Source: Congeria kusceri
Lineage: Eukaryota; Mollusca; Bivalvia; Myida; Dreissenidae
DNA: 64,000 bases
NCBI GenBank assembly: GCA_027627225.1
Contig: CM051025.1
Coordinates: forward strand, 76,409,974-76,473,973
Direction of reading: 5' to 3'
A model generated the notes under the pieces. It searched no databases and was not told the DNA's origin. It saw nothing but the letters and a program-made list of their open reading frames with translations. Shown one piece after another: positions 4,325 through 62,237 of the stretch (positions within the stretch are counted from its first letter, which is position 1; every line of letters begins with the position of its first letter). A program made the position numbers and the translations under genes.

Positions 4325-5302
4325 ATGGAAACCTTAATATCAACAGTAAATGTTCGCGGTTTAAGCAATAAACATAAAAGATTACAAATTTTTGAATGGC
4401 TCAAAGGGTTAAATCACTCAATATACATGCTACAAGAGACACATCTATCAAAAGATAATTTGGAAAAATGGAAACATGATTGGCCTGGAAAATTCGTTTA
4501 TAGTGGAAATAAAACAAATAGCGAAGGGGTTGGCATTTTTATTCATCCTAAAAGTAATATAGAAATTATTCAAAACAGAGAAATTATAGTAGGTCGGTTA
4601 CTTTCTGCCGATATAAAAATTCAAAATAAACTCATCACAATTATAAATGTTTACGGATCAAACTCTGACGACATAACAGTTTTTGATGCACTACAAAATT
4701 ATCTCCTATTGAACAATGATAAATCATATATCGTAGGAGGAGACTTCAATACTGTCTTGAACACAAATATAGATAAAAAGAATGGAAGTAATAAAACACA
4801 TCCAAAGTGCAGAAAAATTCTTTTAAATACTTTATTATCATGTGAACTTACAGATATTTGGAGAACTAAACACCCAGAAAAATTACAATATACCTGGCAT
4901 TCAAATTCAAAACCACCAATACATTGTAGACTAGATTATTTCCTGATATCAGATAACTTGTGTAATTTAATTAATATATGTAACATTAAACCTGGATATA
5001 AAACTGACCACTCTCTAGTATATATATCAATTAACGAATCTCTATTAGGAAAAGGGCCAGGCTATTTCAAATTAAATAACTCTATTTTATTAGATACTGA
5101 ATATCAAGAAAAGATTAAATTAAGCATACATGATGTGGTAAACTTTAACTCAGACTCAAATCCTAATACACTTTGGGAAATAATAATAGGTACCGTACGA
5201 AATGAAACCATTAAATACACATCTTACAAAAAGAAACAAAAAAAAATAGAAGAAAATAAACTAGAAAATGAAATTCGCCTGCTCGAAAAACAACAAATTT
5301 GC

Positions 5303-5337
<35 letters not shown>

Positions 5338-5379
5338 TAATAATAATAATAATAATAACACTAGTAGTAGTAGTAGTAG

Positions 5380-5411
<32 letters not shown>

Positions 5412-8909: not shown

Positions 8910-9192
8910 GGTTGGTGAATACAGACCCAGATTGCGTTAAGGTTGGTGAATACAGACCCAGATTGCGTTAAGGTTGGTGAATACAGACCCAGATTGCGTT
9001 AAGGTTGGTGAATACAGACCCAGATTGCGTTAAGGTTGGTGAATACAGACCCAGATTGCGTTAAGGTTGGTGAATACAGACCCAGATTGCGTTAAGGTTG
9101 GTGAATACAGACCCAGATTGCGTTAAGGTTGGTGAATACAGACCCAGATTGCGTTAAGGTTGGTGAATACAGACCCAGATTGCGTTAAGGTT
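8910..9192 (+). repeat. Perfect 31-bp minisatellite, nine copies
   Basis: Units start at 8910, 8941, 8972, 9003, 9034, 9065, 9096, 9127 and 9158, followed by 4 bp of a tenth. Each begins GGTTGGTGAATACAGACCCA. I see no differences between copies, which implies recent expansion or ongoing homogenisation. The small ORF starting at 9160 is partly repeat sequence. Confidence 0.97.
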
Positions 9193-16500: not shown

Positions 16501-19500
16501 ATATAAACTTTAAACAGAAAATCTATGTGAAAATGGGACATAACTCTATCAAAAAACAAAATAGAGCTATGGGGAACGTTCAACCTGATACTGGAGTTGA
16601 TGACAAAGGTATATTCCAAGTTTCAAGTGAATAGCTCTTGTAGTATTAAAGTTACAAAACTGTTGAATATTAACTTTAACCAGAAAATCTACGTGGAAAA
16701 GGGACATAAATCTGTCAAAATACAAAACAGAGTTATGGGGAATGTTGCCCCTGACACTGGAGTTGATGACAAAGGTTAGTTCCAAGTTTCAAGTGAATAA
16801 CTTGTGTAGTTTTGAAGTAACAAAACTTTTGAATATAAACTTTAACCAGAAAATCTAAGTGAAAAAGGGGCATAACTCTGTCAAAATACAAAACAGTTAT
16901 GGGGAATGTTGCCCCTGACACTGGAGTTGATGACAAAGGTATATTCCAAGTTTTAAGTGAATAACTTATGTAGTTTTGAAGTTACAAGACTTTTGAATAA
17001 AAACTTGAACCAAATTCAGACGTGGACGCGGATGCTGATGCCCGGGGTAATAGGAAAGCTCACCTATTCTTCGAATAGTCGAGCTAAAAATATCATTTTT
17101 TGCCAAAAAAAGGGCAATTACTCAGCTGATGTCGGAAAAAAATGCACCAAAATACCCAGGTGCACAAGTTCACATGCTGATTAATATGTTTCATCACTTT
17201 AGCAGTAATACTTTTTGAGTTACGCGCGACACAAAAATCAAACGCACGGACGGACAGACGGGCAAATCTATATGCCCCCCCTCTAAAGTGGGGGCATAAA
17301 AACTTTTACCACAAAATTTATGTGAAAAGAGGCATAACTCTGTCAAAATACAAAACTGAGGTATGGGGAATGTTGCACTTGATGTTGGAGTTGATGAAAA
17401 TGATATATTCCAAGTTTCAAGTGAATAACTTTTCGTATATTTGAAGTTATAAGACTTTTAATTATAAACTTTCACAATAAAATCTACACGTATATGAAAA
17501 AGGGGCATAACTCTGTAAAAATACAAAACAGAGTTATGGGGAATGTTGAAATTGATGTTGGAGTTGATGACAAAAGTACATTGTAAGATGCAATTGAATA
17601 ACGTCTGTAGTTTTCAAGATATAAGACTTTTGAATATAAATTTTAACCATAAAATCTATGTAACAAAGTGGCATTACTCTGTCAAAATACAAAACTGAGG
17701 TATGGCAAATGTTGCACTCCATGCTGGAGTTGATGAAAAAGGTATATTTCAAGTTTCAAGTTAATAACTCATGTAGCATTGACAATGAAGTTACAATACT
17801 TTTGAATATAAACTATAACCAAGATCAGACACGGACGCGAATGCTGGCGACTAGGCGAGTAGGGAAGCTTACCTATTCTTCTTATAACAGAAAATCATGT
17901 TAGAAGTGAAGCTCTGGTGAATAAGTTTTTTTTTTTTTAGAATTTAATCACATGCTACAAGTTGTTTAAAGTTATTTACAGATCTAGGTAAGGTAATAAA
18001 ACCTTTAATCCATGGGCGTTTTAGGAACAGTTAAACAGTTGCCCCTCGGTATCGGCCTCAGATAACAGTTTCAAAATCATTCCTACCACCTCGGGACAAC
18101 AGTTTTAGCTGTTCAACAACCGCCTATGAAGTAACTACGGTGTATACTGTGCGCCATGACCTTCCATACCACATTAACGGCTTGGGAACTCATCATGATG
18201 CTGAGAAATATGTAGCAACTGTTGTGGCAAACTGCGGCAGTGATGTCCAAGGGGTCATGGTGCACTTTCTTATTCTCCAGGTCAAACTGACACTGTCAGA
18301 AAAATATGTGGCATTCAATCATCATAAGGAACAGTGTTTAAAATAATGAGATACAGGAATTATGACAGAGATGTTGATCGTAAATGTTACTCCCCGCCTT
18401 CACTAAAATCTGAACTGAACTATTGATCTCAATCCTAATTTGTAATAGAAATCTGTGTTAAAAGTTGTGAATGTACAATACAAATTTCCAAAATGCGAAA
18501 GCAATCTCATAGCAGAAAGTTAAAACAAGAGGGCCATGATAGCCCTAGCTCGCTCACTGAGTTTAAGGCATAAAGGCTGATAACAAGTGGGAAAATTGGC
18601 ACTAAACGCCTTACCTGAGTATAAAGATCTGGGCCTTGCAATTTCAGATATTTATTTTTTTATTCTATATAAACCATGTGACCCACAGGGCATGGCCACC
18701 TTGTACCCCAGGGGCATAATTTGAACAATATTTGTAGTGGACCACTTTTCAATGTTACATACCCAATATGATTCCACTGGGCCTTGCGGTTTCAGAGGAG
18801 CTTTTTCAAGTCATTTTGCTATTTAAATGTATATAAACCATGTGACCCCCAGGGGGTGGCCAATTTCTTACCCCAGGGACATCATTTGAACAATCTTTGT
18901 AGAGGACCACTCCGCATTGTTTCACGCAAAACATAAAACCTCTGGGCCTTACGGTTTCAACAAGGAAGATTGTTAAGGCCCACTTGCCATATAAGTCTAT
19001 ATAAATCATGTGACGCCCCGGGTCATGGCCATTTCTTACCACAGGGGCATAATTTGAACAATCTTTGTAGAAGACCACTATACAATGTTACATAATACGA
19101 AAAAACTGCGGTTTCAGGAGATTTTTAAGTCATTTGGCAATTTTAGTCTATATATCTATATAAACAATGTGACCCCCAGGGCAGGGCCAGCTTTGACCAA
19201 TGGGACATCATTTGAACAATCTTTGCAGAGGACCACTATAAAATGTCACATACCACATATGAAACCTCTCAGCCTTGCTATTTAATTCCATATCAACCAT
19301 ATGAACCCTGGGGTGTGGCCAGTTTTTACCCCAAGAGAATCATTTGAGCAGTCTTTGTAGAGGACCACTATACAATGTTACATACCAAATATGAAACCTC
19401 TGGGCCTTGCAGTTTCAGAGAAGATTTTTAAAGCCATTTTGTTATTCAAGTCTATAGAAACCTGGTGTCCCCTAGGGTGTGCTAAGTTTTGACCCAAGGG

Positions 19501-22500
19501 GCATCCTTTGAACAATTTTCATACAATGTTTTCAACCAAATTTGAAACCTTTGGGCCTTGTGGTTTCAGAGGAGAAGTTTTTTAAAGTCATTTTCCTATT
19601 TACATTTATATTAACCATGTGAGCCCTGGGGTGTTAATAGTTTTGACCCCAGGGGCATCAATTGAACAATCTTTGTAGAGGACCACTATACAATGTTATA
19701 TACCAAATATAAAACCTCTGGGCCTTGCGGTTTCAGAGGAGAAGATTTTTAACATCATTTTGCTATATAAGTCTATATAAACCATGTGACCCCTGGGGCG
19801 TGGCCAGTTTTGACCCCAGGGGTATCATTTGAACAATCTTAGTAGAGGACCACTAGAGGATGTCACATATCAAATATGAAAGCCCTGTCCAATATCTGGT
19901 ACTAAAAAGTTGTTCTTCCGAGAAAAGGTCCTTGGGTGGAGGCTGCCAACAAAGCATTTAGAACTTTGATGGAGAGACATGATCTGTGTGTAGTTTTTTG
20001 CGTGCTGCATACATTTAATTAAACTGTACAAATGAAAGGTTTCAAGTAGATGACTAGACTTTAGGCTCTATGCTACGTGTTACTGTACATGCTGGTGAAA
20101 CAGACTGCAGTGTCAGAGCCACAGACTCGATTGCTGCATTTTGTCTTACAAAAAATTGTGCAGTTCCACCTAAGTTAGACTACTTATAGATCTAATGCTA
20201 TCATTTCATATTTGGCATTTCATTATTTAATTAGAAATATACACTTTGCCTGTAAACAAATTCAATGTAGTAGATCTAAAGTGAAAATATATGATATAAG
20301 ACGGTCTTATATACTAAGACAGATTGACTACATTGCTTACACATTGCCTAAAAATTACATCCAGCTAATTTACTTACACAACAACATGATTGAACATGCT
20401 GGTGGGTAACATTTTCTATGCATTTCAATGGTCATCTCAACGATTCTCTAAAGCACCCTCACAACAATGTGTAACTGGCTATAGCTGGTTTGATAAGATC
20501 TAAAAAAAGCACACTGTATACACCTGGCTGGAATGTCGTCACTGTATTGATTTATGAGTGTTGGAGGCTTATTGAAATTATAGTGCTGAAGTATAAACAA
20601 TGTGACCCCCTGGGGTGTAGTCAGTTTTGACTCCAGGAGAATAATTTGAACAATCTTTGTAGAGGACCACTATACAATGTTACGTACCAAATATAAAACC
20701 TCTGGGCCTTGCAGATTCAGGGGAGATTTTAAGTCACTTTGCTATTTAAGTCTATATAAACCATGTCACCCCGGGGTGTGGCCAATTTTGACCCCAGGGG
20801 CATCATTTGAACAATCTTTGTAGAGGACCATTATACAATGTTACCAACCGAATCTGAAACCTCTCGGCCTTGCAGTTTCAGAGAAGATTTTTTAAGTCAT
20901 TTGGCTATTTAAGTCTGTATAAACCATGTGACCCCCGGATTGTGGCCAGTTTTGACCCCAGGGGCATCATTTCAACACTTTTTGTAGAGGACCACTATGT
21001 AATGCTACATACCAAATATGAAACCTCTGGGCTTTGCGCTTTCAGAGAAGATTTTTAAAGTCATTTTGCTATTTAAGTCTATATAAACCATGTGACCCCT
21101 GGGGTGTGGCCAGTTTCACCCCAGGGGCATCATTTGAACAATCTTTGTAGAGGACCACTATACAATGTTACATACCAAATATGAAACTTCTAGGCATTGC
21201 GGTTTCAGAGATTTTTAAAGTTTTTACTTTTAAAATCTATTTTTAGCTCTGGTGACCTATATATGCAGCGGACCGGAAAGATTTGAACAACTTTGAAAGA
21301 GGTCCACCCAAGGATCATTCCTGTGAAGCTTGGTGAAAATCTGCCAAGCAGTTTAGGAGGAGATGTTGTTTGAATGAAAAGTTGACGACGCACGCATGCA
21401 CACACGCATGACGGACAACGGGCGATCACAAAAGCTCACCATGAAGAAAACGGCTAAAGAAATCATAATACGAGACCAATTATCTTTTAGGACAGGTGTA
21501 ATATATATGAGGCATGTCGTGGGAAAGTCGGGCTTAATGCATGTGTGTAAAGTGTTGTCCCAGATCAGCCTGTGAAGTCCACACAGGCAAATCCGTGACG
21601 ACACTTTCCGCCTCCAATGGATTTATGTTTAGAAGATACTTTCTTGAAACAGAAAATACATGAAAGTGGAAAGTGCCGTCCTGGACTGCACAGGCTAATC
21701 CAGGACGACACTTTACTCGCATGTATTAAGACCGGTTTTCCCACGACAAGCCTCATATATCTTTCCTCAAACAAATCACCATAGGTTTGACATACACACT
21801 GGTGTACTGCTAGACCGCTTATCAGAGATGCAATCTGACTGGCTACATGGAATGTCAAACAATAACCTGTCGTAAAGTCAATTTAAGAGGTGTCAAAATC
21901 TCTAAACTAAATAACATTAGCTGGGTTGATGATGAAACACAATCCCTGTATATTAAGTAAAATTTTGAGTAGCAACTTACATTTTTTTTAAATCCAGTTA
22001 AAATTTACATATATTGAACGACTATATGTTTCAAGAAAAAGTATACTTTTACCATTATATTACAGATACAGCAAAAATAGTACCATGTATGATGAGATAA
22101 ACATCATGCCAATACTAAACCTCTTGGCTACACATTTGATGTCATTAAGATAGGCATGTCCATGAAATGCCGGTAAGTCACTTGACATGATTATGACCAG
22201 AAGGCAGCAGGGCTAACAAAACAAACAAAGAGAGAAACTGCATAAGCAGGATGTGTACCATGAGTTTCACCAGAACGCCGTTGACTTTGACAATCACTGC
22301 AGGAAAAGTATCCTGCTGCGGACCCCTTTCATTCTTGCACATCCTAAAACAGAGAGAATGCAACTTTATTAAAAGCGTATGAGGCGCGTCGTGGGAAAAC
22401 CGGATTTGATGCATGTGCGTAAAGTGTCGTCCCGGATTAACCTGTGCAGTCCGCACAGGCTAATCCGGAATGGCACTTTCCGCCTACAGTGTATTTATGT

Positions 22501-25500
22501 TTAGAAGAGACTTTCTTGAAACAGAAAATACCATAAAAGCGGAAAGTGCCATCCTGGATTAGCCTGTGCGGATTGCACAGGCTAATCCGGGACGACACTT
22601 CACGCACATGCATTAAGACCGGTTTTCTCACGACGTGCCATGTATTGTTTTGATTTCCAGTTTAGGTGATAAAGTAGACTATAACCTGCTAGATTTCTAA
22701 GGCGGTCGGGCGTTTACCTCAGATTCTAAATATCTGATGTGTATATGTATTTGAATTAGCAAAAAAAAGTATTTGATCAAAGATAGCCTAAACTCTACAC
22801 CAGGCATTTTCATCTAGAAGTACGCTGAGCTCCATCAGTAAGCCCACCATTGGGAACTAAACCACAATTATATCTACACTAGTACATGGTAATAGATTCA
22901 TTCTTCAGTGTACAATTCATGACTTTTAACTTGATTGTAAATACCTTTTAAATACCTAAGAACCTTTAAAATGCATGTGGATATAAATCTACATGTATGC
23001 ATGTCAAAGTCAATACATACAATATAAATAGGATCCGACAATTGTCAAATTAGCAGGGGACGGTACCACATTGTCCCATCTACACAACAAATCTACAAAT
23101 ATGCCTTTATCTTTTTCATATAAAACATTATTAAATTATCTTCATTTCTGGCAAACTAAAAAAAGTTGGAATAGTAGGAGATTCTTTACCAAAAAGAAGG
23201 AAATGACCGAGTATTGGCAATTATTTCCTTGATGCTGAAGTTCATGACAATGTTATATTCTAAGTTTCAATTTAATAACTTGTGTAGTTTTGAAGTAGCA
23301 AGACTTTTGAACAGAAACTTTAACCTGAAATTCTATGTGAAAAATGGTCATTACTCTGTTAAATACAAAACAGAGATATGATGAATGTTGCCCCTGATGC
23401 TGCAGTTGATGACGAACGTTTATTCCAAGTTTCAACTGAATAACTTCTGTGAAGTAATGATACTGTTGAATAAAAACTTTAACCTGAAATTCTATGTGAA
23501 AATGGGGCATAAGTCTGTCAAATACAAAACAGAGTAGTGGGGAATGTTGCTCCTGATGCTGGAGTTGATGACAAACGTGTATTCCAAGTTCCAATTGAAT
23601 AACTTCTGTAGCTGTGAAGTTATAATACTGTTAAATAAAATCTTTAACCTGAAATTCTATGTGAAAAGGGGCATAACTCTACCAAAATACAAAACTGAGT
23701 TATGGGGATTGCTGCACCTCATGCTGGAGTCGATGACAAAGGTATATTCCAAGATTCAAGTGAATAAATAAGTAGTTTTTAAGTTAAAAATCTTTTGAAT
23801 AAAAACTTCAACCAAATTCAGACGCGGACACAGACGCCACCACCGTGAAAACTAAACCGAAATCCGGCTTGTGGTTTCGAACAAGATCTTTAAAGTTTGC
23901 TAGTTTTTAGGCTTTTGGTTGCCATCCAGAGTTTTTAATATAATGCATTCAATTATAGGAATTTCGTAAGGGATGATTCCAGGAATATTTCTGCGAAGTT
24001 TGGTTAATATCCCTCAAGCGGTTTCAGAGAAGCTGTTAAGTAAAACTGTTGATGACTGTCACAATGACAGATGAACGACGGACCACAATAGCTCACCCTT
24101 AGGCACTTCGTGTTCAGGTGAGCTAAAAAATGTACTTTATAGACAAACATTTCTGCAGCAGTTATGTAAATTCATCCATTTTAATTCATCCATTTTAATT
24201 TTAATTGCTTTGTTTTCTTAAATAATAACAATCTAGGTGTCTTACTAATACAAAATATTTAATTTCAATTTAAAGTAAGTAAAGACTGCTTACCTGTTCA
24301 CAAAATGCTTAAAAGAAACTTACCTTAGTAACACTTGCATTTTTCCATTGCTTAAATCACTCCTGAAAAAAAATAAGATTCTTATCTTTGCAAAAATGTT
24401 AGTTCAAAAGCATAATTAGGATGACATCCAAACGGTTATAAAGGAGTCTTACAGAAACAATCTGAACACTGTGATAGGTGTAGAGATCTATGTGCACTGA
24501 ATTTTTTTTCTAAAATTTGGAACAAACAACCAACAACATAACAAGTAAAAACTCAAGACTTTCCATACATTTTTCAACTACATGTAACCATAAAGTATTA
24601 AGTTCTATCTTAAAAACCAAAAATCATACTGGATGAGTAAACCAAGTCTTAAGCCTATAGATTCAATTGTTTCCAACAAAAATGGACCTAAACAAAAAAA
24701 ACTTAACTCCATAAACAAGTACAACAATATTCTGTCTTTGATAAACACACATGCCCCCGGTTGGTGCTGGGTAGCCCATTTCTTAGTCCAAATTAGGTCA
24801 AGATCAAGGTCAAAGTTAGGTTGGGTAATATGGGTGGACTGGGAAAGGTCATAAGTAAAAACTGTGTAAATATCTAAGTGTTGTAGTAAGCAGTGTTGGT
24901 GCTAGACGAAACAGTAAAATCTAGTTTACCAAGAAATGGCACTTTTGAATTATTATAAGTCCAAACCAGGTCAAAGTCAAGGTCAAAGTGAGGTTGGGTG
25001 ATATGGGTGGATTGGGGATGGTCATAAGCAACAACTGTGTAAGTATCCAAGTGTTGTAGCAAGTGGTCTTGGTGCTAGACGAAATGGTTAAAATCTAGTT
25101 AACCAAGAAACAGCCCATTTGAATTATAAGTGCAAATTAGGTCAAGGTCAAAGTCAAAGTGAGGTTGGGTGATATGGATGGATTGGGAACGGTCATAAGT
25201 AACAAGTGTGTAGGCATCAAAGTGTTGTAGTAAGTGGCGTTGGCGCTAGACGAAATGGTAAAATCTACTTAAACTTGTCACGGACGGAAGGACGAACGGA
25301 AGAACGGACAGGACGATCATTATATGCCTCCTGCATCAAGATGCCAGGGGAATAAAAAGGGCCATAATTCAATCATATCCTAAAGACTCATCTCATTATG
25401 CAGTTTGAATGCTGTATGTCAAACAGTTTTCAAGAATAGTGGACCTTAACGAAAAACTCGAATCTAAAAATCTAAGTTGAAAAGGGGCACTAATTCAATC

Positions 25501-28500: not shown

Positions 28501-31500
28501 TACATTTCATTTAGAAGTAGATTGATATGTTGTGAATCAACCTATATGTATTTGAATTTCTGATGAAAAGTACGAATTTATTTTTGTTGAATTGACCAAA
28601 AATTCTTAAATCATGTTTTTTTTTACTTTTACCTTTGATAACAAAAATTATTGTTAGATTGTTACCTGGCTAGATTGTTTGATTTTGTATGATTAGAACA
28701 TTTAAATTCAGTTGTCCGTTTAAAATAACTGTTCATAATAGCATTTTTCTAAAACAGTGCATTTGCATCAAAGCAACACAAAAACATGATTTTAGTAGCT
28801 TGTTCCTTTATAAGACTTACACTTACACTGCACTGTAACTTACAATGGTTTCCCTGAACCTATGTAATTGTGTATAGGTAGTGATTAATCATTAGCTACT
28901 TTGCAGTCTCTTTCAATTGAAATTAAAATGTATGGTCTGAGTGATTTGGTTTCATATTCTTCGCTATTTTTTCTGTATAGATAAAATCAACAGGCACAAA
29001 ATGTCATCCAATTCTTTCATAAATTTAAACTTTTGTGATATCTGATTGTAATTTTCCAGCTTTTAAAAATATCAGCTTTTGAAGATTTTATCGACAGGTT
29101 TTCCATGCTGAAGACTTACTGTTTTTGCATAATGCTTATTTGTCGTAATAACTTAATTCTTGTAAATTGAATAATGTTTGAATCTTTTGTTCCAGTAAAT
29201 TATAATATTATTTTTGTGAAATAAAATGTTATCACTGTATAGATATATTCTGTGTGTACATTTTAACAACGTAAGCGACATTCCATTCCTACAAAAAGTA
29301 GTTCCGAGAAGTGGGCGGGACTAAAGAATCATTGCACGTGCCACAGTAGCATGATATGCGTTAATGTGGGCGGAGCTAAAAAGTGTTATCAGTCAGTGAC
29401 ATGATATTACAGTAAGTGGGAGGAGTTAATTTGTGTTATCGGTCAGTGGTATAATAACGCTTAAAAATATTGGGTCATCACCTTCAACGTAAATGTGCAC
29501 TAGTGGCATAATAAATGCACAGGATCAAATTCCTTGCTGATACAATGTATTGCAAAATTTACACTGAAGAAGAAAAAGTAACCCAAGAAACCTACATCAT
29601 CTGTCGTTTTACATCTTCATTCCAGCCCTTCAAGTCACTTGTTTTTATTGTCTGCATCAAATAAGAGCGTTCTGAAACAATTCAATAAATAAGCATGTTC
29701 ACACATATATGTAAGCAACTGTAACATTGAACCGTCAGTGATGATTAAGAAAGTTATGGCTCTAGATCTGCCCATTTTACATTGTCTACCCCACTTATCA
29801 TTATATAAGTTCACTTAAATGAGGTTTCTGTTGAAGACACATGCAGACACTGTTGAATTTTTAAGAAAAGCTATTTTTATCTCTGCTAATTAAAGAAATT
29901 CTTTCAACATATGTTCAGGTAACTTAAAAAAAAAACATACAGAAAAAAATGAGATAGCAAAAATGCAACTCCAGTGGTGGAAATTTGCACAAGCCCAAAA
30001 TCCCTTCACTGTAACTTCTGAGCTGGATTTGCACATGCCGGCTTGTAGCATGTTTTTGCCCACAAGTAATAATGTAGGCATTTTGGGATTTCTTGTTTGC
30101 CCACAAGTAATAATGTAGGCATTTGGGCTTTCTTGTTTGCCCACAAGTAATAATGTAGGCATTTGGGCTTTGTTGTTTGCCCACAAGTAATAACGTAGGC
30201 ATTTGGGCTTTCTTGTTTGCCCACAAGTAATAATGTAGGAATTTGGGCTTTCTTGTTTGCCCACAAGTAATAATGTGGGCATTTGGGCTTTCTTGTTTGC
30301 CCACAAACAATAATGTATGCATTTGGGCTTTCTTGCCCAAACTGCTAATTTTGAAGACTGCCATAGGGTTGACACAACTAAGCTAGTATTTTTTTTTTAC
30401 TAACATCCTACCTTTGCTCAGTTTGATCTCTGTTGGCTCCAAAATATGCATAATCTCTTCATAAAATGGTAGTTTTGTAAACTGCCTCTTGTCACATGAA
30501 TCTTGGGCTACTTCTTTGGACAGAGCACCATGACTCGCACAGCACTGGTACTTAGCAGATTCTATGAACAGAGAGACAGATATATGTCATCAAAGCCTCC
30601 AAACAATGGGCATGTACTGTTAAATATTTTTCTTAAAACCATGAAACTAGAATGGAGCACCAGGCAGCAACCTGCAAGTAATTCTTGATAGCCTGTAAAT
30701 AAAAAGAATATTTAAAAATGTTTTATTTTTAAATATAACAAGACATTCCAAAGGACAGCTATATCCCCCGCCATGATCCTTCATTAGATTTTAAAGGTGA
30801 CTTTGAAGTATCACACTGACCTTAATCAGTTTCATGAACATTCCTTAAAGGACATAGCAGATATGGAGCTGACACACACAAAAATGGAGGCTCCAACATT
30901 TGACCTTTAAGTGTGACCTTAACTTTGAGGTGGCAAGACTGCTCCATGCCTTTTGCACATTGCCTACATGTGATAAACATTTGAGCCAAGTTTTATGAAA
31001 ATCCTTCAAAGGGTATAGGAGATAAGGAGCAGAAACAACAAGAGCTGTCAGAGGACGTTACAAAACTGTTGAATATAAACTTTAAACAGAAAATTTATGT
31101 GAAAAAGGGACATAACTCTATCAAAATACAAAATAAAGTTATGGGGAATGTTCACCCTGATACTGGAGTTGATGACAAAGGTATATTCCAAGTTTCAAGT
31201 GAATAGCTTTTGTAGTATTGAAGTTACAAAACTTTTGAATATTAACTTCAACCAAAAAATCTATGTGAAAAAGGGGCATAACTCTGTCAAATACAAAATA
31301 GAGTTATGGGGAATGTTGCCCTTGATACTGGAGTTGATGACAAAGGTTAGTTCCAAGTTTAAAGTGAATAACTTATGTAGTTTTAAAGTTACAAAACTTT
31401 TGAATATAAACTTTAACCTGAAAATCTAAGTGAAAAAGGGGCATAACTCTGTCAAAATACAAAACAGAGTTATACGAAATGTTGCCCTTGATACTGGAGT

Positions 31501-34500
31501 GGATGACAAAGGTATATTCAACGGTTCAAGTGAATAACTTATGTAGTTTTGAAGTTACAATACTTTAAAAAAAAAAAACTTAAACCAAATTCTCACGCGG
31601 ACGCGGACGCCGGGGGTAGTAGGAAAGCTCACCTATTCTTTGAATAGTCGAGCTAAAAATGGAGGCTATAACATTTGACCTTCAAGTGTGACCTTGACCT
31701 TCAGGTTGCGTGACTGCCTCATGCCTTCTGCACATTGCCTCAATGTGATAAACAATGTGAGGCAAGTTTCATGAAAATCCTTTAAAGGGCACAAGAGATA
31801 TAGAACGGACATGAAAATACAGGCACAAACATTCAACCTTCAAGTCTGACCTCGACCTTGAGTTGGCATGACTGGGTTATGCCTTCTGCACATGGTCTCA
31901 ATGAGCAAAACATTTTAGCCAAGTTTCATGAAAATCCTTCCAAGGGTATATGGGATATGGAGTGGACACGAAAAACGGACAACAAATGCAGCTCAAAAAT
32001 TTAACCTTCAAGTGAGACCTTGACCTTGAGCTCGCTAGAAAGACCCATGCCTTCTGCACATTGTCTCAATGACATGAACATTTAATTCAAGTTTTATGAA
32101 AATCCTTCAAACGGCATAGGAGATATGGATCGGACACGAAATGGAGGCTCGAATAATTGACCTTTAACTGTGACCTTGACCTTGAGACGGCGTGACTGAC
32201 TCATGCCTTCTGCACATCGTCTCAATGACCTTAACATTTGAGCCAAGTTTCATGAAAATCCTTCAAAGGGTATAGAAGATATGGAGCGGACACAAAAATG
32301 TTACGGACGGACAGACGGACGGACGGACGAAGGGCATTCCTATAACCTCCCTCCAGCTTCGCGGCGGGGATTAATAACCAATACTTGTGTGTTATTACTA
32401 GTTTAAAATGCAAAATTTTCATTACATAAGATTGTGATTACCAACTTCCAAGTATACCATATACTGTCAGTGTCTGGGAAAGGATTTTTCCATAAGAAAT
32501 AATTTCTCATGTCCACAAAAATCTTTGGGTTTTCCAAAAATCTATGGGCTTTTCCAAAAATCTATGGGCTTTTTAAAAAATATATGGGATTTCCTCCAAT
32601 CTTTATGGGATTTCACAGCAATTACATTTTATGAACGTCTAACAGTTGCAATCGACAAAAATACACCACGCAAACGCTCTTGTTTACCCTTCAAGATGTA
32701 ATGAGCATCTGTTGATATTAATTTTTGGATAAATTCTCACCGCATAGCGACACAACTGCAAATCAGACCGAGCATTTTGTAATGCACAGCAGCGTTTTTC
32801 GATTCGTACTCAAATATGTCGGTGCGACGTTAAAACGCATTGGTGAACATTTGTTTGCGATATTTCTCAATTTTATGAGCAAATACAGCATTTCGCATGG
32901 GTTTCCCAGTAACTCACTGTGTACATTTACAAATACACTATTGATCACAATTTTTTTTTTTTCACAAAGAAGACCAGATTAGTGAGTCTTCACAAATTTG
33001 GGTACACAGGTGATGGATGCTATTGTTAAATTTACAGAAAATAACATTGTATTATTTGATGTCAAAGAAAGTACCTGTTAGCTGACGTCTAGAATTCACA
33101 ACAACAAAACATAGCAGCTACTGTGGACACTTATACACAAATATATGTTGTGTCATAGCGATGATGAATACATAAACAGAAAATCTGATTGATTCGTCAA
33201 GGCCAACAACAACAGTCCAAAAACAGTATCATGCCAATGAACACATGTTGGACAAATGTCATTGTCTAATGTATAGTAGGGTGGAGCTTATTTTTGAACT
33301 TTTGAAATATGATCTTCTTAACCGCTCATTTTGTTCCTATATATAAAAAAAATTAATTTGGCCAAATATGAGCACAATTGAACAATATTTAGGGGTAGCT
33401 CAATGATTATGAAGCAGGGCTCAGCCTAGGGACAAATTTTAGGGAGAAGTCACTTCTCCCTCAGTTCAATTTAGGGAGTAGTGAGGCCATTTCAAGGGGA
33501 AGTGTTTCCCAAAAAGCGCTTAACCATAATTGTGCCTGTTATTACCATCATCAGACCATGTCAATCATTATCATAGTACCAAGTCCATCATCATCATCAT
33601 TATCAAAATCTCCATAAATTAATAACAAGATATTTTCAAGTTGTATTACATTATTCTAGTTTCCAAGTTTTTTTCCCCTAAGTTTCCATTCTAGCAATAC
33701 ACACATCAATAAAGGTTTAAATTTAAATATTTTTTAAAGATATTTTCAAGTTGTATTACATTATTCTAGTTTCCAAGTTCCCCCTCCCCAAGATTCCATT
33801 CTAGCAATACACACATCAATAAAGGTTTTAATATAAATATTTTTTAATATTTTTTTATTCAACATTCACAATGCCTCATAAAACATTGTGTTTTTTGGAT
33901 TTCGAAAACGATTATTATGTATTAATCATATTTTTTCCGCTATTAATTCTTTTTTTTTTCAATAAAACACTTCGTTAAAATTACCTTGCAATTATTTATC
34001 CAATTTGAACAAACAATAAAATTCGTTAAAAACACCAGTCATTAAAATTAACACATGTTAAATCTAAGAAGAGTGACAGCGTGACGTCATCAATTAGATC
34101 GGGCTTTCAAATCTGCAAGCCGTTATTAACAGCTAACAGCAATGGTGTCGGTTTGACTTAAAAAAGTCCTTGATATGACTGCCGAGCTGGGGCCATTGTC
34201 TAGCAGTTTGTAGCACTAAGCGTGTAACACGATTAGCACGTGGTCAGTGAAAAAAGCATCAATCAATACTACTGTACCTAAACAAATGCAAGCACTGTTG
34301 ATAGAGCATTAATGAATTAGCGTTCTAGAGGAAATATCAAGAGTGTGAAAAAAATCAGACAGTTGTTTTGTTGCATTGAATCAAATGGATATTTAAATGG
34401 GGTGATGAAATACACATGTCTTGGAATCAAAATGAAAACTGTATTACAAGGGAAATTATTGGATATAAACATGAATATTTACATTCAGTATGGATTGATA

Positions 34501-52182: not shown

Positions 52183-52410
52183 CTATTAAGGGGAAACACT
52201 GATTTCCATAGATGAGACGGCAATAGTCGAGCTGTTTACTGTGGCCATAAATAGCGTCTGAATTGGCCATGGTTAGCGTCTGAATTCCGATCTCAAACCA
52301 CTAAATTACACAATGATCTGGAATAAGAATATTTTATATTAAATGTATGAATAAATTCAATTATAACAATAAGCAATAGGCGCATTAACATTATTTATTT
52401 ATTTATTAAC

Positions 52411-55013
52411 AGCCAGTGACCTATGTCCACAGTAAAAAGCGATTTTTATGTAAAATTGTGCACATCCAGTGACCAATGGCCGCAGACATTATCGATCTCT
52501 ATAAACAATAGACGCATTTCAAGTATATGAGAATATATGCATATCAAGTCACCTACAGCCACAGTAAAGGATGATTTCTATGAGGATAAAGTGGCCTATA
52601 GCCACAGCGAATGGCGATTTCTATTAGAATGTACGCATATGAAGTGACCTATGGCCACAGCAAATGGCGATTTCTATCAATATATACGTAAATAAAGTGG
52701 CCCATGACCAGAGCAAATGGCGATTTCTATGTGAATATACGCATCTCATGTCCACAGTACAGGACGATTTCTATTTGAATATAGGCACATACAGTGACCT
52801 ATGGCCTCAATAAAGGACGATTTCTATGTGAATATACGCATCTCAAGTCAGCTATGGCCTCAGTAAAGGACGATTTCTACGTGAATATACGCATATAAAG
52901 TAACATATGGCCACAGTAAATAGCAATTTTTATGACAATATACGCACATCCAGAGGCCTTCGGCCACAGTAAATAGCCATTTATATAATAATATACGCAC
53001 ATTCAGTGGCCTATGGCCACAGTAAATGACCATTTCTATGTGAATATACGCACATCCAGTGACCTATGGCCACAGTAAATGGCCATTTCTACAATAATAT
53101 ACATACAAGTATTAGATACACATCCAGTGACCTATCGCCACAGACAATGGCCATTTATATATACGTAAATAAAGTGGCCCATTACCAGAGCAAATGGCGA
53201 TTTCTATGTGAATATACGCATCTCAAGTCACAAACGGCCACAATTATAATGGATGATTTCTATGTGAATATACGCATATAAAGTGACCTATGGCCACAGT
53301 AAAGGACGATTTCTATGTGAATACACGCATCTCAAATCACATATGGCCACAGTAAAGGACGATTCTATGTGAATATACGCATATAAAGTGACCTATGGCC
53401 ACAGTAAATGGCCATTTTTATGATAAAATACGCACATACAGTGACCTATGGCTACAGTAAATGGCCATTTCTATGACAATATAGGCACATCCAGTGGCCT
53501 GTTGCCACAGAAAATGGCCATATATATGTGAATATACGCATATCCAGTGGCCTTTGGCCACAGTAAATAGCCATTTATATAATAATATACGCACATCCAG
53601 TGGCCTATGGCCACAGTAAATGGCCATTTCTATGATCATATACGGACATCCAGTGGCCTATGGCCACAGTAAATTGCCATTTCTATGACAATATACGCAC
53701 ATCCAGTGGCCCTATGGCCACAATAAATGGCCATTTCTATTTGAATATACGCACACCCAGTGACCTACGGCCACAAATGGCGATTTCTATTAGAATGTAC
53801 GCATATGAAGTGACCTATGGCTACAGCTAATGGCGATTTCTATCAGAATATACGTAAATAAAGTGGCCCATGACCAGAGCAAATGGCTCTGTGTTTTTTA
53901 TGTGAATATATTACGCATCTCAAATCACCTATGGCCACAGTAAAGGAAGATTTCTATGTGAATATACGCATATAAAGTGACGATTTGTATGTGAATATAC
54001 GCATCTCAAGTCACCTATGGCCTAAGCAAACGACGATTTCTATGTAAATATACGCATATAAAGTAACCTATGGCCACAGTAAATGGCCATTTTTATGATA
54101 ATATACGCACATACAGTGACCTATGATCACAGTAAATGGCCTTTTCTATGACAATATACGCACATCCAGTGGCCTATGGCCACAGTAAAAGGCCATTTCT
54201 GTAATAATATACGCAGATCCAGTGGCCTATGGCCACAGTAAATGGCAATTTCTATGACAATATACGCACATCCAGTGGCCTATGGCAACAGTAAATGGCC
54301 ATTTCTATGTGAATATACGCACATTCAGTGACCTATGGCCACAGTAAATGGCCATTTCTATAATAATATACATATAATACACACATCCAGTGACCTATGG
54401 CCACAGACAATGGCCATTTCTGTAACAATAGGCGCATTTCAAGTGACATATGCCCACAGGTAATCGGGATTTATATGAGAATATACGCATATCAAGTCAC
54501 CTACGGCCACAGTAAAGGACGATTTCTATGAGAATAAAGTGGGCTATGGCCACAGCAAATGGCGATTTCTATTAGAATGAACGCATATGAAGTACCTATG
54601 GCCACAGCAAATGGCGATTTCTATCAGAATATACGTAAATGAAGTGGCCCATGACCAGACTAAATGGCGATTTCTATGTGAATATACGCATCTCAAGTCA
54701 CATACGGCTACAGTAAAGGACGATTTCTATGTGAATATACGCATATAAAGTGACCTATGGCCACAGTAAAGGACGATTTCTATGTGAATACACGCATCTC
54801 AAGTCACCTATGGCCACAGTAAAGGACGATTTCTATGTGAATAGACGCATATAAAGTGACCTATGGCCACAGTAAATGGCCATTTTATGATAAAATACGC
54901 ACATACAGTGACCTATGGCCACAGTAAATGGCCATTTCTATGTGAATATACACACATCCAGTGGCCTATGGCACAGTAAATGGCCATTTCTATAATAATA
55001 TACGCACATCCAG
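52411..55013 (+). repeat. 53-bp satellite array, left arm (~49 monomers)
   Basis: Monomer TATGGCCACAGTAAATGGCC + ATTTCTATGATAATATACGC + ACATCCAGTGGCC; the spacing measured at 53601-53654 is 53. Variant monomers (GACGATTTCTATGTGAATAT, GCGATTTCTATCAGAATATA) recur in groups, suggesting higher-order units. Monomers hold the palindromes AAATGGCCATTT and GGCC(AT)AGGCC. Confidence 0.95.
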
Positions 55014-55110
55014 TGGCATATCCTATGAAGAGGCTAATGCTTCGTTGACATATACCGAAGGAATGAAAACCTTACTGAAAGCACTTGCCGATGGACTGAA
55101 CACATGTTAG
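55014..55110 (+). CDS. Terminal-exon-like coding piece, plus strand
   Basis: The last satellite monomer ends ...CACATCCAG, a usable acceptor; from 55014 one base and then codons give GISYEEANASLTYTEGMKTL and LKALADGLNTC before TAG at 55108-55110. AATAAA follows at 55213-55218. The peptide looks coding but I recognise no family. Upstream exons were not found; the array would be its intron. Confidence 0.4.
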
Positions 55111-57598
55111 TTCATGTTATGTACTTTATAAAATGTAACAATTAATTACTTGCCACTTTGCTACCATGCGATGTATATGTGATAACTGCTTTTTTTCACT
55201 CTATTTTCAGACAATAAACTTATCATATTCAATTATCCAAGAACAAAATGATAACAACTGTAAAAAGATGAAGACAAAGCATGAATTACAAGGTCAGAGT
55301 CTCCGAAACTTCTTACTTACAGTACTGGTAGACATGAATCAGTTGTGAATTAATGTGGCACTTATACATGAGCTTACTTTTTATACATTTCACTGTGGGA
55401 CAAAGCACAGTTTCCTAAGGTACATAGAGTTAAGAACCAACATTATAGTGTATATTTGTATACATTTGTTTTATGCTCACATGCTTCAATGGTGCGCTGT
55501 TCAACCTTTAAATGAGCAGCCACAAAAATCGTGAATTTGAGAAATAGTGTTGGATGTTTACTGTGAAATATTATATGTTCATACTCCTAACAGTTTAAAA
55601 ATACATGTATGACATTATTTTTGTATATGATCGTATTAGTTATTACAACTATTACTTATTTTTATTGTCTGCTTTATTTAGTTACATGCAACATCAACAT
55701 ATAGAAGTATATTTTCTATACATTTTAATAATTGATAATATGACAAGTTATTTATGTAACTGTATACGTTCTTAATTGCATTATTATTATTGTTGAAAAT
55801 GTCTATATATTTCTATATTATTATTACATAATACATACTGCACTGTCTGTTTATTCATAACAGATCAGTCGTTTTGTACAACAATATATTGCATTAATAC
55901 GCTCATGTTTTGGTGTTTGTATATAGGAAAAAAAATGACACTGCATAATAACCTATTGAATTAATTTGAAGTATATATAAGACAATGACAGACAGATGTT
56001 TGTGTGGTTTTTAGTAATTTATTTACCGTGCAACAATAGACTGGGGAACTAATAGAGTAAGTAAATTGCTATCAACCATGATAATGCATACAATATTTTG
56101 TTTTACATTATTGTATTCAAACGTGTTTTAAATTATGTTAGTTTTTTTTCCGGAGAGCCTAGCGGTTTGTTTGTTCTCATCTAAGTAACAGGAACAATAT
56201 ATTAACTACGTAACTTGTTTTATTACATTGGAAGCCTAAAATACTCTACACATATATGCAAACTATGCATAAAATAATAACTTAAGTAAGAGTTTTATAA
56301 ATTATTATGTTGACAGTTACATATATGTAAGATATGAACTATGTTTATGGTCTCTATGACTATCCCTTTGACCTACTAAAACAATTATCTATTTTTGTTT
56401 ATTATTCAAACCTTTTCAATAACATTTTTGTTGTTAATGAGGTAATTAAGCTCACCTGAGCCAAATTGCGTAAGGGTGAGATATAGTGGTCATCACTGTC
56501 GGGCGTTCATTGTTCGTCGTCCGTCGTCATTTAAATTATTTTAACAACTTGAACAATAATCGTCCAGGTTTTTATCCATGAATCTGAAAGCTGCTTCCCA
56601 TCCGCATGTCTGAACATTGAAAGGGTATGTTACAAATTGTCAGACATCATATAGGCATATTGGTCCGCTCATGCGAGTACAAGTATATGTACTCGTATGA
56701 GCGGATCAGACACGGTATATGTTTTTGTTTAAAACACTTTATATTTTCTTTGCTTTTGGTTTTCTTATATGTCTTGCCACAGTCTTGTTATGATCTCACT
56801 TAATGTCGATTACTGATTATAGTTAGAGAGAAAATGTTATTTTTTATGTAAGGGGAGACAACCAAATAGTAAGCGGAGATAACCAAATATTGGCTACAAA
56901 TAGTTAGTTGTTGGTGAACTTGATTTATACTTACGTCAGCGACCACGAACACTTTGACCATCTTGTTTAGATACATTAATCTGTATCAACTGGGTACGCT
57001 ATTATCACACAGTATGCAACACATTTTAACCAGAGAGACATACCTATTTTGATATTTTTTGCAGCAATAATGATATGTATGTTAATATTGATATGTATAT
57101 ATATTTCAAATATATCAATGATCAATGCTTTGGTACAAAAAATGCATACTAGTCAAAGGATGTTGAACTTAAATTAAAATCGGATGCAGTTCTATTGGAT
57201 TAAAACCTGAATAATCATTGCTTTCCTTCTTTTCGTTTTAGCCCAACATGTATGATAGAGTCTGCTAAGTGAACATTAACTTGTTTAAGAACCCCTGACT
57301 GTATAATCGTATTTCCTGTGCACAAAATATATCTAATCGACATGAACTTGTAAATAATTGAATATATTGGTATGTTGGCATTGAATCTGATCACAGTTTA
57401 CTCAATACCCACTGGAGTGTATTCCGATATTCACACATACAACACTATGTACTGTTGATATTGATAACTGGGTATGGAAGTAATAAGCAAACAGACGTCG
57501 AAGGGTGTTTTAAAAAATCACAGAACAAACAAGAACTTCTTGTGATATTTTAATGTGATAGCGCATTTTGTTTTCACGATAAAAGCAAAATCAAATGC
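55111..57598. other. Core of the giant element between the two coding pieces
   Basis: AT-rich. 56450-56640 is a pearl-type tail in reverse (AGCTCACCTGAGCC ... CGTCGTCCGTCGTC). 56664-56705 is a hairpin with 18-bp arms and one mismatch. No long ORF. Confidence 0.5.
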
Positions 57599-57837
57599 TT
57601 AGTTTGTGTCACTGTCAGCAGTGCATGACGTTGACGACGTCTCGCTTGACGTGCATGAACTTTCAAAGCAGTCGCCGTCAGCATCAATGAACCCATCGCT
57701 CGAAGACTGGTGACTGGTCACACTTATGTCAGTCCTTGTAGGATCTTTTGTTTAGCCGGTTGGCTCACCAATGGACAAAAAACCCGGCGGCCTTTCAGTT
57801 GCTCATAACATGACACAAGTACTCTGCGAAGTCTCTA
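57599..57837 (-). pseudogene. Terminal-exon-like coding piece, minus strand, one frameshift
   Basis: Acceptor GAGATTTCAG before 57837. One frame reads RLRRVLVSCYEQLKGRRVFC then PLVSQPAKQK to about 57733. A one-base shift near AAACAAAAGATCC leads into DPTRTDISVTSHQSSSDGFI and a Ser/Thr/Asp/Cys-rich end (CTADSDTN) at TAA 57601-57599. ATTAAA lies about 50 bp past the stop. Either two overlapping chance frames or one exon with a frameshift; composition favours the latter. Family unknown. Confidence 0.42.
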
Positions 57838-57879
57838 CTGAAATCTCAAAGTCTCAAATGCAAATGTATTTAATACAAA

Positions 57880-60800
57880 TAAAGGTCACTGAATATTCAT
57901 ACATTCCCATTGAACAGTTGTTGTAGCCATAGGTCACTGTATGTGTTTATATTCTCATAGAAATGGCCAATTGCTGTGGCCATGGGTCACTGCGTGTGGT
58001 TATATTCCTATAGAAATCGCTCTTTACTTTGGTCATAGGTCGCTTTGTTGAAGTATATTCTTATAGAAATGGCAATTTGCTGTGGCCATAGGTCACTGGC
58101 AGTACATATATTCGTATTTCAATTGCCTTTTACTACGGTCATAGGTCAGTAGATGTTTATATATTCACATTGAAATCGCCATTTGCTGTCGTCATAGGTC
58201 ACTTTATTTATGTATATTATCAACACATTCGACCTTTACTGTGCCCATAGGCCAATGGATGTGCTTATCTTCTAATAAACATCGTCCTTCACTGTCGCCA
58301 TAGGATATTGTTGAGCATATATACACATAGAAATCACCATTTGCTGTGGCCAAAGGTCAATCGATGTTCTTTTATTCAAATAGAAATGGCCATTTGCTGT
58401 GGCCGTTGGCGACTGGATGTGCGTATATTATCATATAAATGACCATTTACTGTGGCCATAAGCCACTGGATGTGCGTTTATTATCATAGAAATGGCCAGT
58501 TACTGGGTTCGTAGGCCACTGCATGGGCGTATATTATCATAGAAATGGTCATTTACTGTGGCCATATGTCAATTGATTTAGGTATATTATCATTGAAACG
58601 GTCCTTTATTGTGGCCATAGGTCACTGGATGTGCGTATATCATCATAGAAATGGCCATTTGCTGTGGCCATAGGCCACTGCATGTGCGTATATTGTCATA
58701 TAAATGACCATTTACTGTGGCCATAGATCACTGGATGTGCGTATATTATCATACAAAATGGCAATTTATTGTGGCCATAAGTCACTTTATTTACTTATAT
58801 TATCATACAAATAGTCCTTTACTTTGGCCACAGGCAACTGCATGTGTGTCTATTCACTTAGAAATGGCCATTTAATGTGGCCATAGGTCACTGTATGTGC
58901 GTATATTATCATAAAAATTGCCATTTACTGTGGCCATAAGTGACTTAATTTACGTATAGTATCATAGAAATGGTCCATTACTGTGGCCTATGGCCACTGG
59001 ATGAGCATATGTTCACATAGAAATCACCATTTACTGTGGCAAAAGGCCACTGGATGTGCGCATATTCACATAGATATGGCCATTTACTGTGGCCATGTGT
59101 CACTTAATTTACGTATATTCACATAGAAATGTTCCTGTACTGTCGCCAAAGTCACTGGATGTGCTTATATTATCATAGAAATGGCAATTTACTGTGGCCA
59201 TGTGTCACTTAATTTACGTGTATTCACATAGAAATGGTCCTTTGCTGTGACCATATGTCACTGGATGTGTGAAAATTCACATAGAAAAGGCCATTTACTG
59301 TGGCCATCGGCCACTGGATGAGTGCAAATTATCATAGAAATGGCCATTTTCCCGGGCCATAGGTCACTGGATATGCGTATATTATCATAGAAATTGCCAT
59401 TTACTGTGGCCATAGGCTACTGGATATGCGTATATTATTACAGAAATGGCCATTTACTGTGGCCATAGGCCGCTGGATGTGCGTATATTATTACAGAAAT
59501 GGCCATTTACTGTGGCCATAGGTCACTGGATGTGCGTATATTATCATAGAAATGGCAATTTTTCCGGGCCATAGGTCACTGGATGTGCGTATATTATCAC
59601 TGAAATGGGCATTTACTGTGGCCATAGCCACTGCATGTGCGTATATTATCACAGAAATGGGCATTTACTGTGGCAATAGGTCACTGGATGTGGGTATATT
59701 ATCACAGAAATGGCCATTTACTGGGGCCATAGGCAACTGGATGTGCGTATATTATTACAGAAATGGCCATTTACCGTGGCCATAGGCCACTGGATGTGCG
59801 TATATTATCATAGAAATGGCCATTTACTGTGGCCATAGGCCACTGGATGTGCGTATATTATTACAGAAATGGCCATTTACCGTGGCCATAGGCCAATGGA
59901 TGTGCGTATATTATCACAGAAATGGCCATTTACTGTGGCCACAGATCACTGGATCTGCGTATATTATCACAGAAATGGCCATTTACTGTGGCCATAGGTC
60001 ACTGGATGTGCGTTTATTATCACATAGAAATGGCCATTTACTGCGGCCAAAGCCACTGGATGTGCGTACATTCACATAGAAATGGCCATTTACTGTGGCC
60101 ATAGGCCACTGGATGTGTGTATATTGTCATAGAAATGGCCTTTTACTGTGGCCATAGGTCACTGGATGTGCGTATTTTATAATAAAAGTGGCCATTTACT
60201 GTGCCATAGGTCACTTTATGTGCGTATATTCACGTAGAAATCGTCCTTCAATGTGGCCATAGGTGACTTGAGATGCGTGTATTCAAATAGAAATCGTCCT
60301 TTACTGTGGCCATAGGTCACGTTATATGCGTATATTTACATAGAAATCGTCCTTTACTGTGGCCGTATGTAAATTGAGATGCATATATTGATTATATTCA
60401 CATAGAAATCGCCATTTGCTCAGGTCAAGGGCCACTTTATTTACGTACATTCTGATAGAAATCGCCATGTGCGTATATTATAACAGAAATTGCCATTTAC
60501 TGTGGCCATAGGCTACTGGATATGCGTATATTATTACAGAAATGACCATTTACTGTGGCCATAGGCCACTGGATGTGCGTATATTATCACATAAATGGCC
60601 ATTTACTGTGGTCATAGGTCACTGGATGTGCGTATATTATCATAGAAATGGCCATTTACTGTGGTCATAAGCCACTGGATGTGCATATATTATCATAAAA
60701 ATTGCCATTTACTGTGGCCACAGGCCACTGGATGTGCGTACATTCACATAGAAAGTGCCATTCACTGTGGCCATAGGCCACTGGATGTGCGTATATTTCC

Positions 60801-61970
60801 ATAGAAATGGCCATTTACTGAGGCCATAGATCACTGGATGTGCGCATATTCACATAGAAATGGCCATTTACTGTGGCCATAGGTCACTGGATGTGCGTAT
60901 ATTGTCATAGAAATGGCCATTTACTGTGGCCATAGGCCACTGGATGTGCGTATATTGTCATAGAAATGGCAATTTACTGTGGCCATAGGCCACTGGATGT
61001 TCGTATATTCACATGGAAATGGCCATTTACTGTGGCCATAGGCCACTGGATGTGCGTACATTATCACAGAAATGGCCATTTACTGTGGCCATAGGTCACT
61101 GGATGTGGGTATATTATCACAGAAATGGCCATTTAATGTGGCCATAGGCCACTGGATGTGCGTATATAATTACAGAAATGGACATTTACTGTGGCCGAAG
61201 GCCAATCGATGTGCGCATATTATCATAGAAATGGCCATTTACTGTGGCCATAAGCCACTGGATGTGCGTATATTTTCATAGAAATGGCCATTTACTGTGG
61301 CCATAGGTTACTGAATGTGCATATATTCACATAGAAATGGCCTTTTACTGTGGCCATAGGCCTCTGGATTTGCGTATATTCACAAAGAAATGGCCATTTA
61401 CTGTGGCCATATGCCACTGGATGTGCGTACATTCACATAGAAATGGCCATTTACTGTGGCCATAGGCCACTGAAAGTGTGACTATTATCATAGAATTGGC
61501 CATTTACTGTGGCCATAGGCCACTGGATGTGCGTATATTGTCATAGAAATTGCCATTTTCTGTGGCCATGTGGCCATAGACCACTGGATGTGTGTTTATT
61601 ATCATAGAAATAGCCATTTACTGTGGCCATAGGCCACTGGATGTGCTTATATTCAAACAGAAATGTCCTTTTATTGTAGCCATGTGTCACTTAATTTAAG
61701 TATATTATCGTAGAAATGGTCCTTTACTGTGGCCATAGACCACTGCATGTGCGTATATTGTTATTGAAATGACCATTGACTGCGGCCATAGGCCACTGGA
61801 TGTGCTTATATTCTTATAGAAATGGCCATTTACTGTGGCCATAGGTCACTTAATTTACATATATGATCATACAAATCGCACATTTCTGTAGCCATAGGTT
61901 ACTTGATATGCGTCTTTTCTAATACAAATCGCCAAAGGTCATCAGATATGCAAATATACCCATAAAACTA
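57880..61970 (-). repeat. 53-bp satellite array, right arm (~76 monomers, inverted)
   Basis: Same monomer as the left arm read in reverse: ATGGCCATTTACTGTGGCCA + TAGGCCACTGGATGTGCGTA + TATTATCATAGAA. The most regular stretch is about 59300-61500; the edges are diverged. The GATTTCTATGTGAATA-type variants of the left arm reappear inverted at about 60210-60470. Confidence 0.95.
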
Positions 61971-62237
61971 GCAATATATTCTAGTTATACATATTTGAAG
62001 CATTTATTCATTTAGGTGTTTATTTCAACATAAATAATGTTAATGTGTCAACTATTATTAGTGGATTGATATTAATTCGTAGATTTCATATAAATTATAG
62101 TCCTTATTCCAGATCCAAGTTATTTTATAATTTAGTAGTATAACGCCTAAAGTCATACATTTGAAGTATGGAATGAAAGTCACATATGGCCACAGTGACT
62201 ATCTCGACAATGGAAAATAGTCGTTCCCCTATTAAGG

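Follow-up and report, generated by a model that had tools for sequence, protein, structure and literature searches.

The window, the whole stretch of DNA analyzed, comprises 64,000 bp of the 1.549-Gb Congeria kusceri genome (C2:76409974-76473973). It contains a 10,038-bp transposon copy, at positions 52191 to 62228, whose ends both start with GGGAA and are inverted-homologous. Within this copy, arrays of one 53-bp satellite flank a unique core in opposite orientation. Its features are listed below by window position; other copies are referred to by locus (L) and contig (C).

52183-52190, plus strand: left target-site duplication, CTATTAAG; 9 bp, reaching 52191, counting the shared G
52191-52411, plus strand: left terminal domain, GGGAAACACT...; mean identity 94% over 20 compared copies
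52235-52249, minus strand: satellite-like 15-bp motif TTTACTGTGGCCATA in the left terminus, oriented opposite to the adjoining array
52412-55015, plus strand: left satellite array of some 50 53-bp monomers, in which a multi-monomer block recurs
55016-57921, plus strand: unique core, 2.9 kb, AT-rich; pieces at 86-98% in other copies and at 80-89% in a copy bearing a MULE (Mutator-superfamily) domain
55024-55110, plus strand: exon-like piece of 28 codons, ending ...KTLLKALADGLNTC-stop
57922-61940, minus strand: right satellite array, about 77 monomers
60086-60468, minus strand: left-type tract within the right array, 91% identical to left-arm positions 54611-54983 and 78-79% to the remaining right arm
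61941-62228, minus strand: right terminal domain, inward GGGAACGACT...; mean identity 95% over 10 compared copies
62178-62196, plus strand: satellite-like 19-bp motif in the right terminus, oriented opposite to its array
62229-62236, plus strand: right target-site duplication, CTATTAAG

A first-pass annotation of this DNA had described two opposed arrays of one satellite around a unique core, with about 49 and 76 monomers; that architecture holds, at about 50 and 77. Monomers are on average 78-79% identical to one another. The satellite and the terminal domains have no further match in the window (BLAST, E <= 1e-3), and short fuzzy matches to the outer 20 bases (at most 3 mismatches) lie at 7221 and 26143. 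An exact 27-mer of the satellite found no match in collections of viral contigs and genome contigs, and no Rfam family matched the window at gathering scores.

The window also holds other repeats. A non-LTR retrotransposon at 930-8203 encodes an endonuclease, a reverse transcriptase, and a zf-RVT domain in several frames; the frame at 930-1880 has no match, and the endonuclease frame ends in a run of AAT repeats. A 31-bp unit repeated nine times at 8910-9192 with 100% identity is probably a very young tandem array. Arrays of 164-168 bp occupy 18664-21211, and a related-looking 165-166-bp repeat forms separate arrays at 16321-17768, 23230-23813, and 31057-31566.

Termini and target-site duplications

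The nine identical bases reported at both extremes of the unit, CTATTAAGG, are confirmed at 52183 and 62229, and a search of the whole window on both strands found no third site. Given the symmetric ends (GGGAA.../...TTCCC), the duplication is 8 bp long, CTATTAAG, or 9 bp with the shared G included. Of random placements, 0.08% give a direct repeat of at least 8 bp when the boundaries are symmetric with a slack of ±3, and 0.2% do so when the slack is independent.

Read inward, the outermost sequence is GGGAAACACTGATTTCCAT on the left and GGGAACGACTATTTTCCAT on the right. Local alignment of the left terminus with the inverted right terminus scores 137, compared with maxima of 75 among 300 dinucleotide shuffles and 89 among 300 random window pairs; the termini are therefore inverted homologs, as the annotation had proposed. 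In the window copy, 43 of the 244 alignment columns are gapped, identity in the remaining columns is 78%, and 16 of the 20 outermost bases match. The left and right consensus sequences are 79% identical where their alignment is ungapped (52 of its 252 columns contain gaps), and their homology extends over about 220 bp. Both termini hold a short stretch resembling the satellite. The left one scores 30, above the maximum of 500 shuffles (22) and above every one of 472 other window segments (at most 26); the right one scores 28 and exceeds both of its controls (26 each) by a narrow margin. The array motif ACTGTGGCCATA is present about 33-46 bp inside each terminus.

Both junctions were read at 20 copies (the window copy, L009, L010, L012-L016, L018-L023, L025, L026, and L028-L031). 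Duplications are perfect at eight of them, representing seven independent insertions, have one mismatch at two (L009 and L010), are decayed at two (L012 and L022), and are missing at eight. The perfect ones are as follows.

Window copy: CTATTAAG(G)
L013 and its duplicate L016: CAAGAAATC
L015: ATCAGAAGT, judged by eye from the flanks
L019: CATTAAAAC
L020: ATCGCCCTC, with an extra base on the right side
L028: GCTTGTTTC
L031: CAAAAAATC

Outside the window, most copies with a duplication have one of 9 bp. That of L010 was also judged by eye, the script giving 6 bp only. L012 and L022 have their left flank in common with L010, and there the script returned 8 bp only after a boundary shift of 2-3 bases. 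No convincing duplication was found at L014, L018, L021 (6 bp, T-rich), L023, L025, L026, L029 (5 bp), or L030. The lack of a duplication fits end truncation, at L014, L018, and L023, or else recombination among copies, as in the chimeric Galileo copies reported to lack matching duplications (PMC3573991).

Mutator elements are described as generating 8- to 11-bp duplications and as commonly having terminal inverted repeats (TIRs) of hundreds of base pairs (PMC6446971). The Congeria element agrees with the superfamily in both respects: its perfect duplications are 9 bp (8-9 bp in the window), and its TIRs are long, about 220 bp being homologous, and start with GGGAA, so that G/C are the outermost bases.

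Copies across the genome

Left termini occur at 95 places in the genome (31-base pattern, at most 3 mismatches) and right termini at 93 (32-base pattern, at most 3 mismatches); the reversed-pattern control returned 0 for each. Similarity searches gave at least 41 left-end matches, with 40 of 168 candidates scored, and at least 40 right-end matches, with 40 of 179 scored. For 63 of the 95 left ends, an inward right end lies within 45 kb, at a median of 10,943 bp (range, 3,159-33,952). Among the longer pairs are those at C79:255944-279174 and C419:98981-120759. Pairing was by nearest end, with one right end used twice, so that mispairing is possible, and the pairs include segmental or haplotype duplicates, e.g., C12 and C186. 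C186 may be an alternative haplotype of the C12 region, since both have the same right flank (C12:33.005 Mb).

Arrays in both orientations are present at 18 of the 20 loci read over 10 kb; at L026 and L027, the inverted array was not seen within the stretch read. The full right end of the element falls within nine of these 20 loci, and at L011 the inverted array ends without a right end. L019 has no core match, and L023 keeps only the last 311 bases of the core. Some copies have been altered by nested or adjoining insertions. Namely, a Penelope-like element (GIY-YIG, with RVT_1 just under the cut-off) lies in the left satellite array of L010 (1020-3392), and a Ty3/gypsy-type retroelement with long open frames is nested in the core of L026 (525-5896). 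Left ends lie head to head, or a right end abuts roughly the first 20 bases of a left end, at L017 (~5000), L054 (~1500), and L018; one copy seems to have inserted into the terminus of another.

Copies are spread over many contigs, with boundaries at or near GGGAA and different flanks. Among 20 left flanks compared over ~195 bp (L017 left out), 16 are distinct, and the only ones alike are those of the C8 cluster (L010, L012, L022, and L025) and of the pair L013/L016. Termini that recur with differing flanks and matching duplications support the earlier proposal of a mobile element carrying a satellite. In 13 of 32 distinct left flanks a C precedes GGGAA, a possible weak target preference. Left ends are about 94% alike between copies versus 79% to right ends; therefore, the asymmetry of the two ends predates the spread of the element.

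The core and its association with MULE transposase

No coding role is supported for the core of the window copy as a whole: 10 ORFs of 47-69 amino acids gave nothing above the Pfam cut-off, only sub-threshold DUF matches, and across five cores no stop-to-stop frame exceeds 93 amino acids. The exon-like piece at its left end reads YEEANASLTYTEGxKTLLKALADGLNTC-stop and is open in 13 of 18 aligned rows, including that of the MULE-bearing copy, L067; three of the remaining rows are frame-shifted, and two are changed at the stop. It had no match in the PDB and is possibly the last exon of a transposase. A second coding exon at the right end of the core was considered and dropped because overlapping frames are open there on both strands. 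The core also contains a 48-bp near-palindrome (56661-56708) resembling a small hairpin.

A genome-wide profile search for the MULE domain (PF10551), in which 150 of 295 candidates were scored, gave at least 91 matches. Measured from the 95 left ends out to 30 kb, six of these domains lie inward in the same orientation, at 15-26 kb, one lies inward in the opposite orientation (the C111 match, seen from a second left end), and none lies outward; random shifts gave a mean of 0.25 and a maximum of 3 in 2000. One of the six, at C1:100197330, is beyond the nearest right end and thus outside its pair. Another, at C1:105856805 (L067), is inside a paired left-to-right element of 25,049 bp (C1:105839530-105864578). 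The other four follow a left end that has no paired right end at up to 3 mismatches.

In L067, the MULE exon (1128-1472; PF10551, E = 2.3e-10; PF21056, E = 7.6e-9) is followed by the core of the window copy (2587-4944, 80-89%) and then by inverted satellite (4950-5001). MULE-exon DNA is 90-95% identical among L063, L066, and L067, and L063 and L067 are 87% identical further upstream. The stretches read of L063 and L066 contain no core match, so L067 is the one place where the core stands beside a MULE exon. No intact transposase was found in the stretches read: L067 lacks the exon-like frames that come later in L066, and in L063 a stop interrupts the domain. Among the further exon-like frames of L066 (C111) is one with a CxC...CxH pattern, which we read as putatively zinc-finger-like, of a SWIM-like kind; Pfam gave no match for this frame. 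Element termini were not found at up to 8 mismatches in 26 in the stretches of L063 or of L064 and L065, which belong to other MULE groups. L064 carries a 975-amino-acid frame (3219-6143, minus strand) that matches OTU protease and, slightly below the cut-off, the MULE domain, and represents another Mutator-like lineage.

History of the satellite arrays

Array length varies widely among copies, from about 0.7 to 4.6 kb on the left and from 1.3 to more than 4.5 kb on the right; the duplicates L013 and L016 are nearly equal (2470/2469 left and 1328/1342 right). The first-pass annotation had attributed the unequal arms of the window copy to expansion after insertion. The right array of the window matches that of L015 over 2,576 bp at 90% and that of L014 over 3,436 bp at 86%, and its outer 1.77 kb matches L019 at 91%. 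Non-self matches inside this array themselves reach 79-90%, a level not exceeded by the remaining right arrays (82-87%) or by the left arrays, most of which give 76-83% (L011, L021, and part of L010, 87-89%). Since most identities lie within this range, array orthology is established for parts only. Collinearity as evidence that whole arrays predate insertion is likewise weakened, array-to-array identities of 76-90% falling mostly within the non-self range. Most left arrays are too diverged to be dated relative to insertion.

Two parts are informative. A 600-bp stretch of the right array (2700-3300 from its outer end, ~58640-59240) is 97% identical in L014 and L015. The left-type tract is complete in five other right arrays (L011, L014, L019, L020, and L028) at 92-94%, partial in L015 (246 bases, 94%), and present at 86% in L021; it is absent or weak in 10 of 17 right arrays. 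As the tract is common to several right arrays, it seems older than the insertions that bear it. Gene conversion between paired arms would be the simplest cause, the alternative being a shared ancestral order. The order of monomers is also collinear between arms (22.0, against a maximum of 15.5 in 300 shuffles); however, the reversed-order control is high as well (17.5), and we therefore rely on the base-level tract.

Because independent insertions share parts of the arrays in the same order, the satellite must travel with the element. With the 600-bp stretch at 97% in two insertions and the tract in at least five, much of the right array predates insertion. Together with the asymmetry of the ends, these shared parts mean that expansion after insertion is not needed to explain the whole size difference between the arms, although it may account for part of it.

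Origin of the unit and role of its arms

We consider the unit a non-autonomous, internally deleted cut-and-paste element of the Mutator superfamily with foldback arms, at a probability of about 0.83. Foldback elements had been named as the closest concept, and the arms agree: the arrays are opposed and contain ungapped inverted stretches, e.g., 410 nt at 85%. Inward MULE domains and a core beside a MULE exon narrow that assignment to the Mutator superfamily. Longer relatives would supply a transposase that binds to the GGGAA termini, cuts the unit out, and reinserts it with an 8- to 9-bp duplication. Termini, core, and duplications occur at many sites, and movement in trans is predicted. On the basis of the 25-kb relative L067, the window copy probably derives by internal deletion from a longer, transposase-bearing form, its core being a remnant from next to the lost transposase gene.

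The chief competing explanation is that another TIR superfamily, above all Merlin, moves the unit and that the nearby MULE genes are nested passengers. Merlin elements are described as having 5'-GG ends, 8- to 9-bp duplications, and TIRs that span 24-462 bp, some families also containing internal tandem repeats (PMC8101967), so that Merlin fits by its ends and duplications but not by the associated gene. Nested insertions do occur in these copies (the Ty3/gypsy-type and Penelope-like elements above), and only one of the 63 pairs contains a MULE match, with 150 of 295 candidates scored. Against it stand the biased placement of MULE domains, six inward in the same orientation against one opposite and none outward, and the order of MULE exon, core, and satellite in L067; we regard this explanation as improbable. 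A Helitron or Helentron origin has a precedent in bivalves, where elements such as HINE and pearl disperse satellite-like arrays (PMC7492417). Helitrons are described as lacking target duplications, however, whereas eight of 20 copies here have perfect ones, and a pair of long inverted termini, each with its inverted array, is unlike the HINE structure described there (PMC7492417). We therefore reject this origin as very improbable. An inversion or segmental duplication that split a satellite locus, with the direct repeat arising by chance, would agree with the segmental duplicates (L013/L016 and the C8 cluster) and with the eight copies without duplications; nevertheless, near-identical ends on many contigs, distinct flanks, and duplications that differ in sequence between copies lead us to reject it as the least credible explanation of all.

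For the MULE-derived element, the role of the arms is a separate question. The 53-bp satellite is part of the element and moves along with it; its arrays vary in length between copies, and the tract of one arm lying in the other suggests arm-to-arm copying. We give even odds to the arrays having no role in transposition and being passengers amplified by slippage or unequal exchange. Their widely varying lengths and monomers only about 78% alike favor this, while the array motif at a similar place in both termini and the retention of both arrays at 18 of 20 loci argue against it. If they do have a use, the likeliest single one, proposed tentatively, is as extra transposase-binding sites, since ACTGTGGCCATA also lies about 33-46 bp inside both termini. 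It is conceivable, on balance doubtful, that the family is a giant MULE (pairs up to ~25-34 kb) whose transposase-bearing form also has kilobase satellite arms, these being binding arrays amplified from a terminus motif and homogenized arm to arm while the element spreads the satellite.

Comparison with known elements

The closest known systems are Tetris and Galileo of Drosophila, Tetris being the nearest structural match. Tetris of Drosophila virilis is described as a non-autonomous foldback element with terminal, tandem-repeat, and non-coding middle domains and 8- to 10-bp duplications; its repeat has a short stretch in common with the terminal domain, and its arrays grow into satellite (PMC4079207). 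By description, it has ~220-bp repeats and TIRs up to 1.7 kb, in contrast to the 53-bp units and ~0.7- to 4.6-kb arms reported here. The asymmetric ends (79% left to right) also set the Congeria element apart. Three structurally complete Tetris copies are reported, and no autonomous partner is reported to have been found (PMC4079207), whereas here a relative bearing a transposase exon exists in the same genome. Galileo resembles the Congeria element in its long, internally repetitive TIRs with unequal repeat numbers and in its chimeric copies without matching duplications (PMC3688188, PMC3573991). Its repeats bind the THAP domain of its transposase (PMC3688188), and we count these binding sites as a further likeness, binding in the Congeria element being predicted (PMC3688188, PMC3573991). 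Galileo differs in its superfamily (P), its 7-bp duplications, and its two or three ~210-bp repeats in one subfamily (PMC3688188, PMC3573991).

Other elements share fewer features. Tm1 of Meloidogyne, a Mutator-related foldback element, has TIRs made mostly of tandem repeats and mostly 9-bp duplications; its repeats are ~14 bp, the element described is 1,080 bp, and its TIRs are on average 93% identical (PMC3169594). Rehavkus and the aphid Phantom are MULEs or MULE-like; they carry a minisatellite and have 8- to 10-bp duplications, but the minisatellite is described as one-sided, lying either ahead of the 3' TIR or behind the transposase ORF, and not as two inverted kilobase arms (PMC6446971). 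HINE and pearl likewise disperse satellite-like repeats; they differ as rolling-circle Helitrons described without target duplication and with a single array between two modules (PMC7492417, PMC5139131). MULEs have been reported from every mollusc genome analyzed in PMC10294476, and our search of open-access literature by titles and abstract openings found no mollusc MULE with satellite arms. Overall, we regard the element as a new family and variant but not as a class of its own; it has dozens of copies in the genome.

This element offers a clear case of a satellite that lives and moves within a DNA transposon; dozens of its insertions can be compared, and a relative bearing a transposase exon exists in the same genome. 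The birth, spread, and homogenization of satellites thereby become testable. The idea that repeat arms act as arrays for transposase binding, raised before for Tetris (PMC4079207) and Galileo, can be tested here as well.
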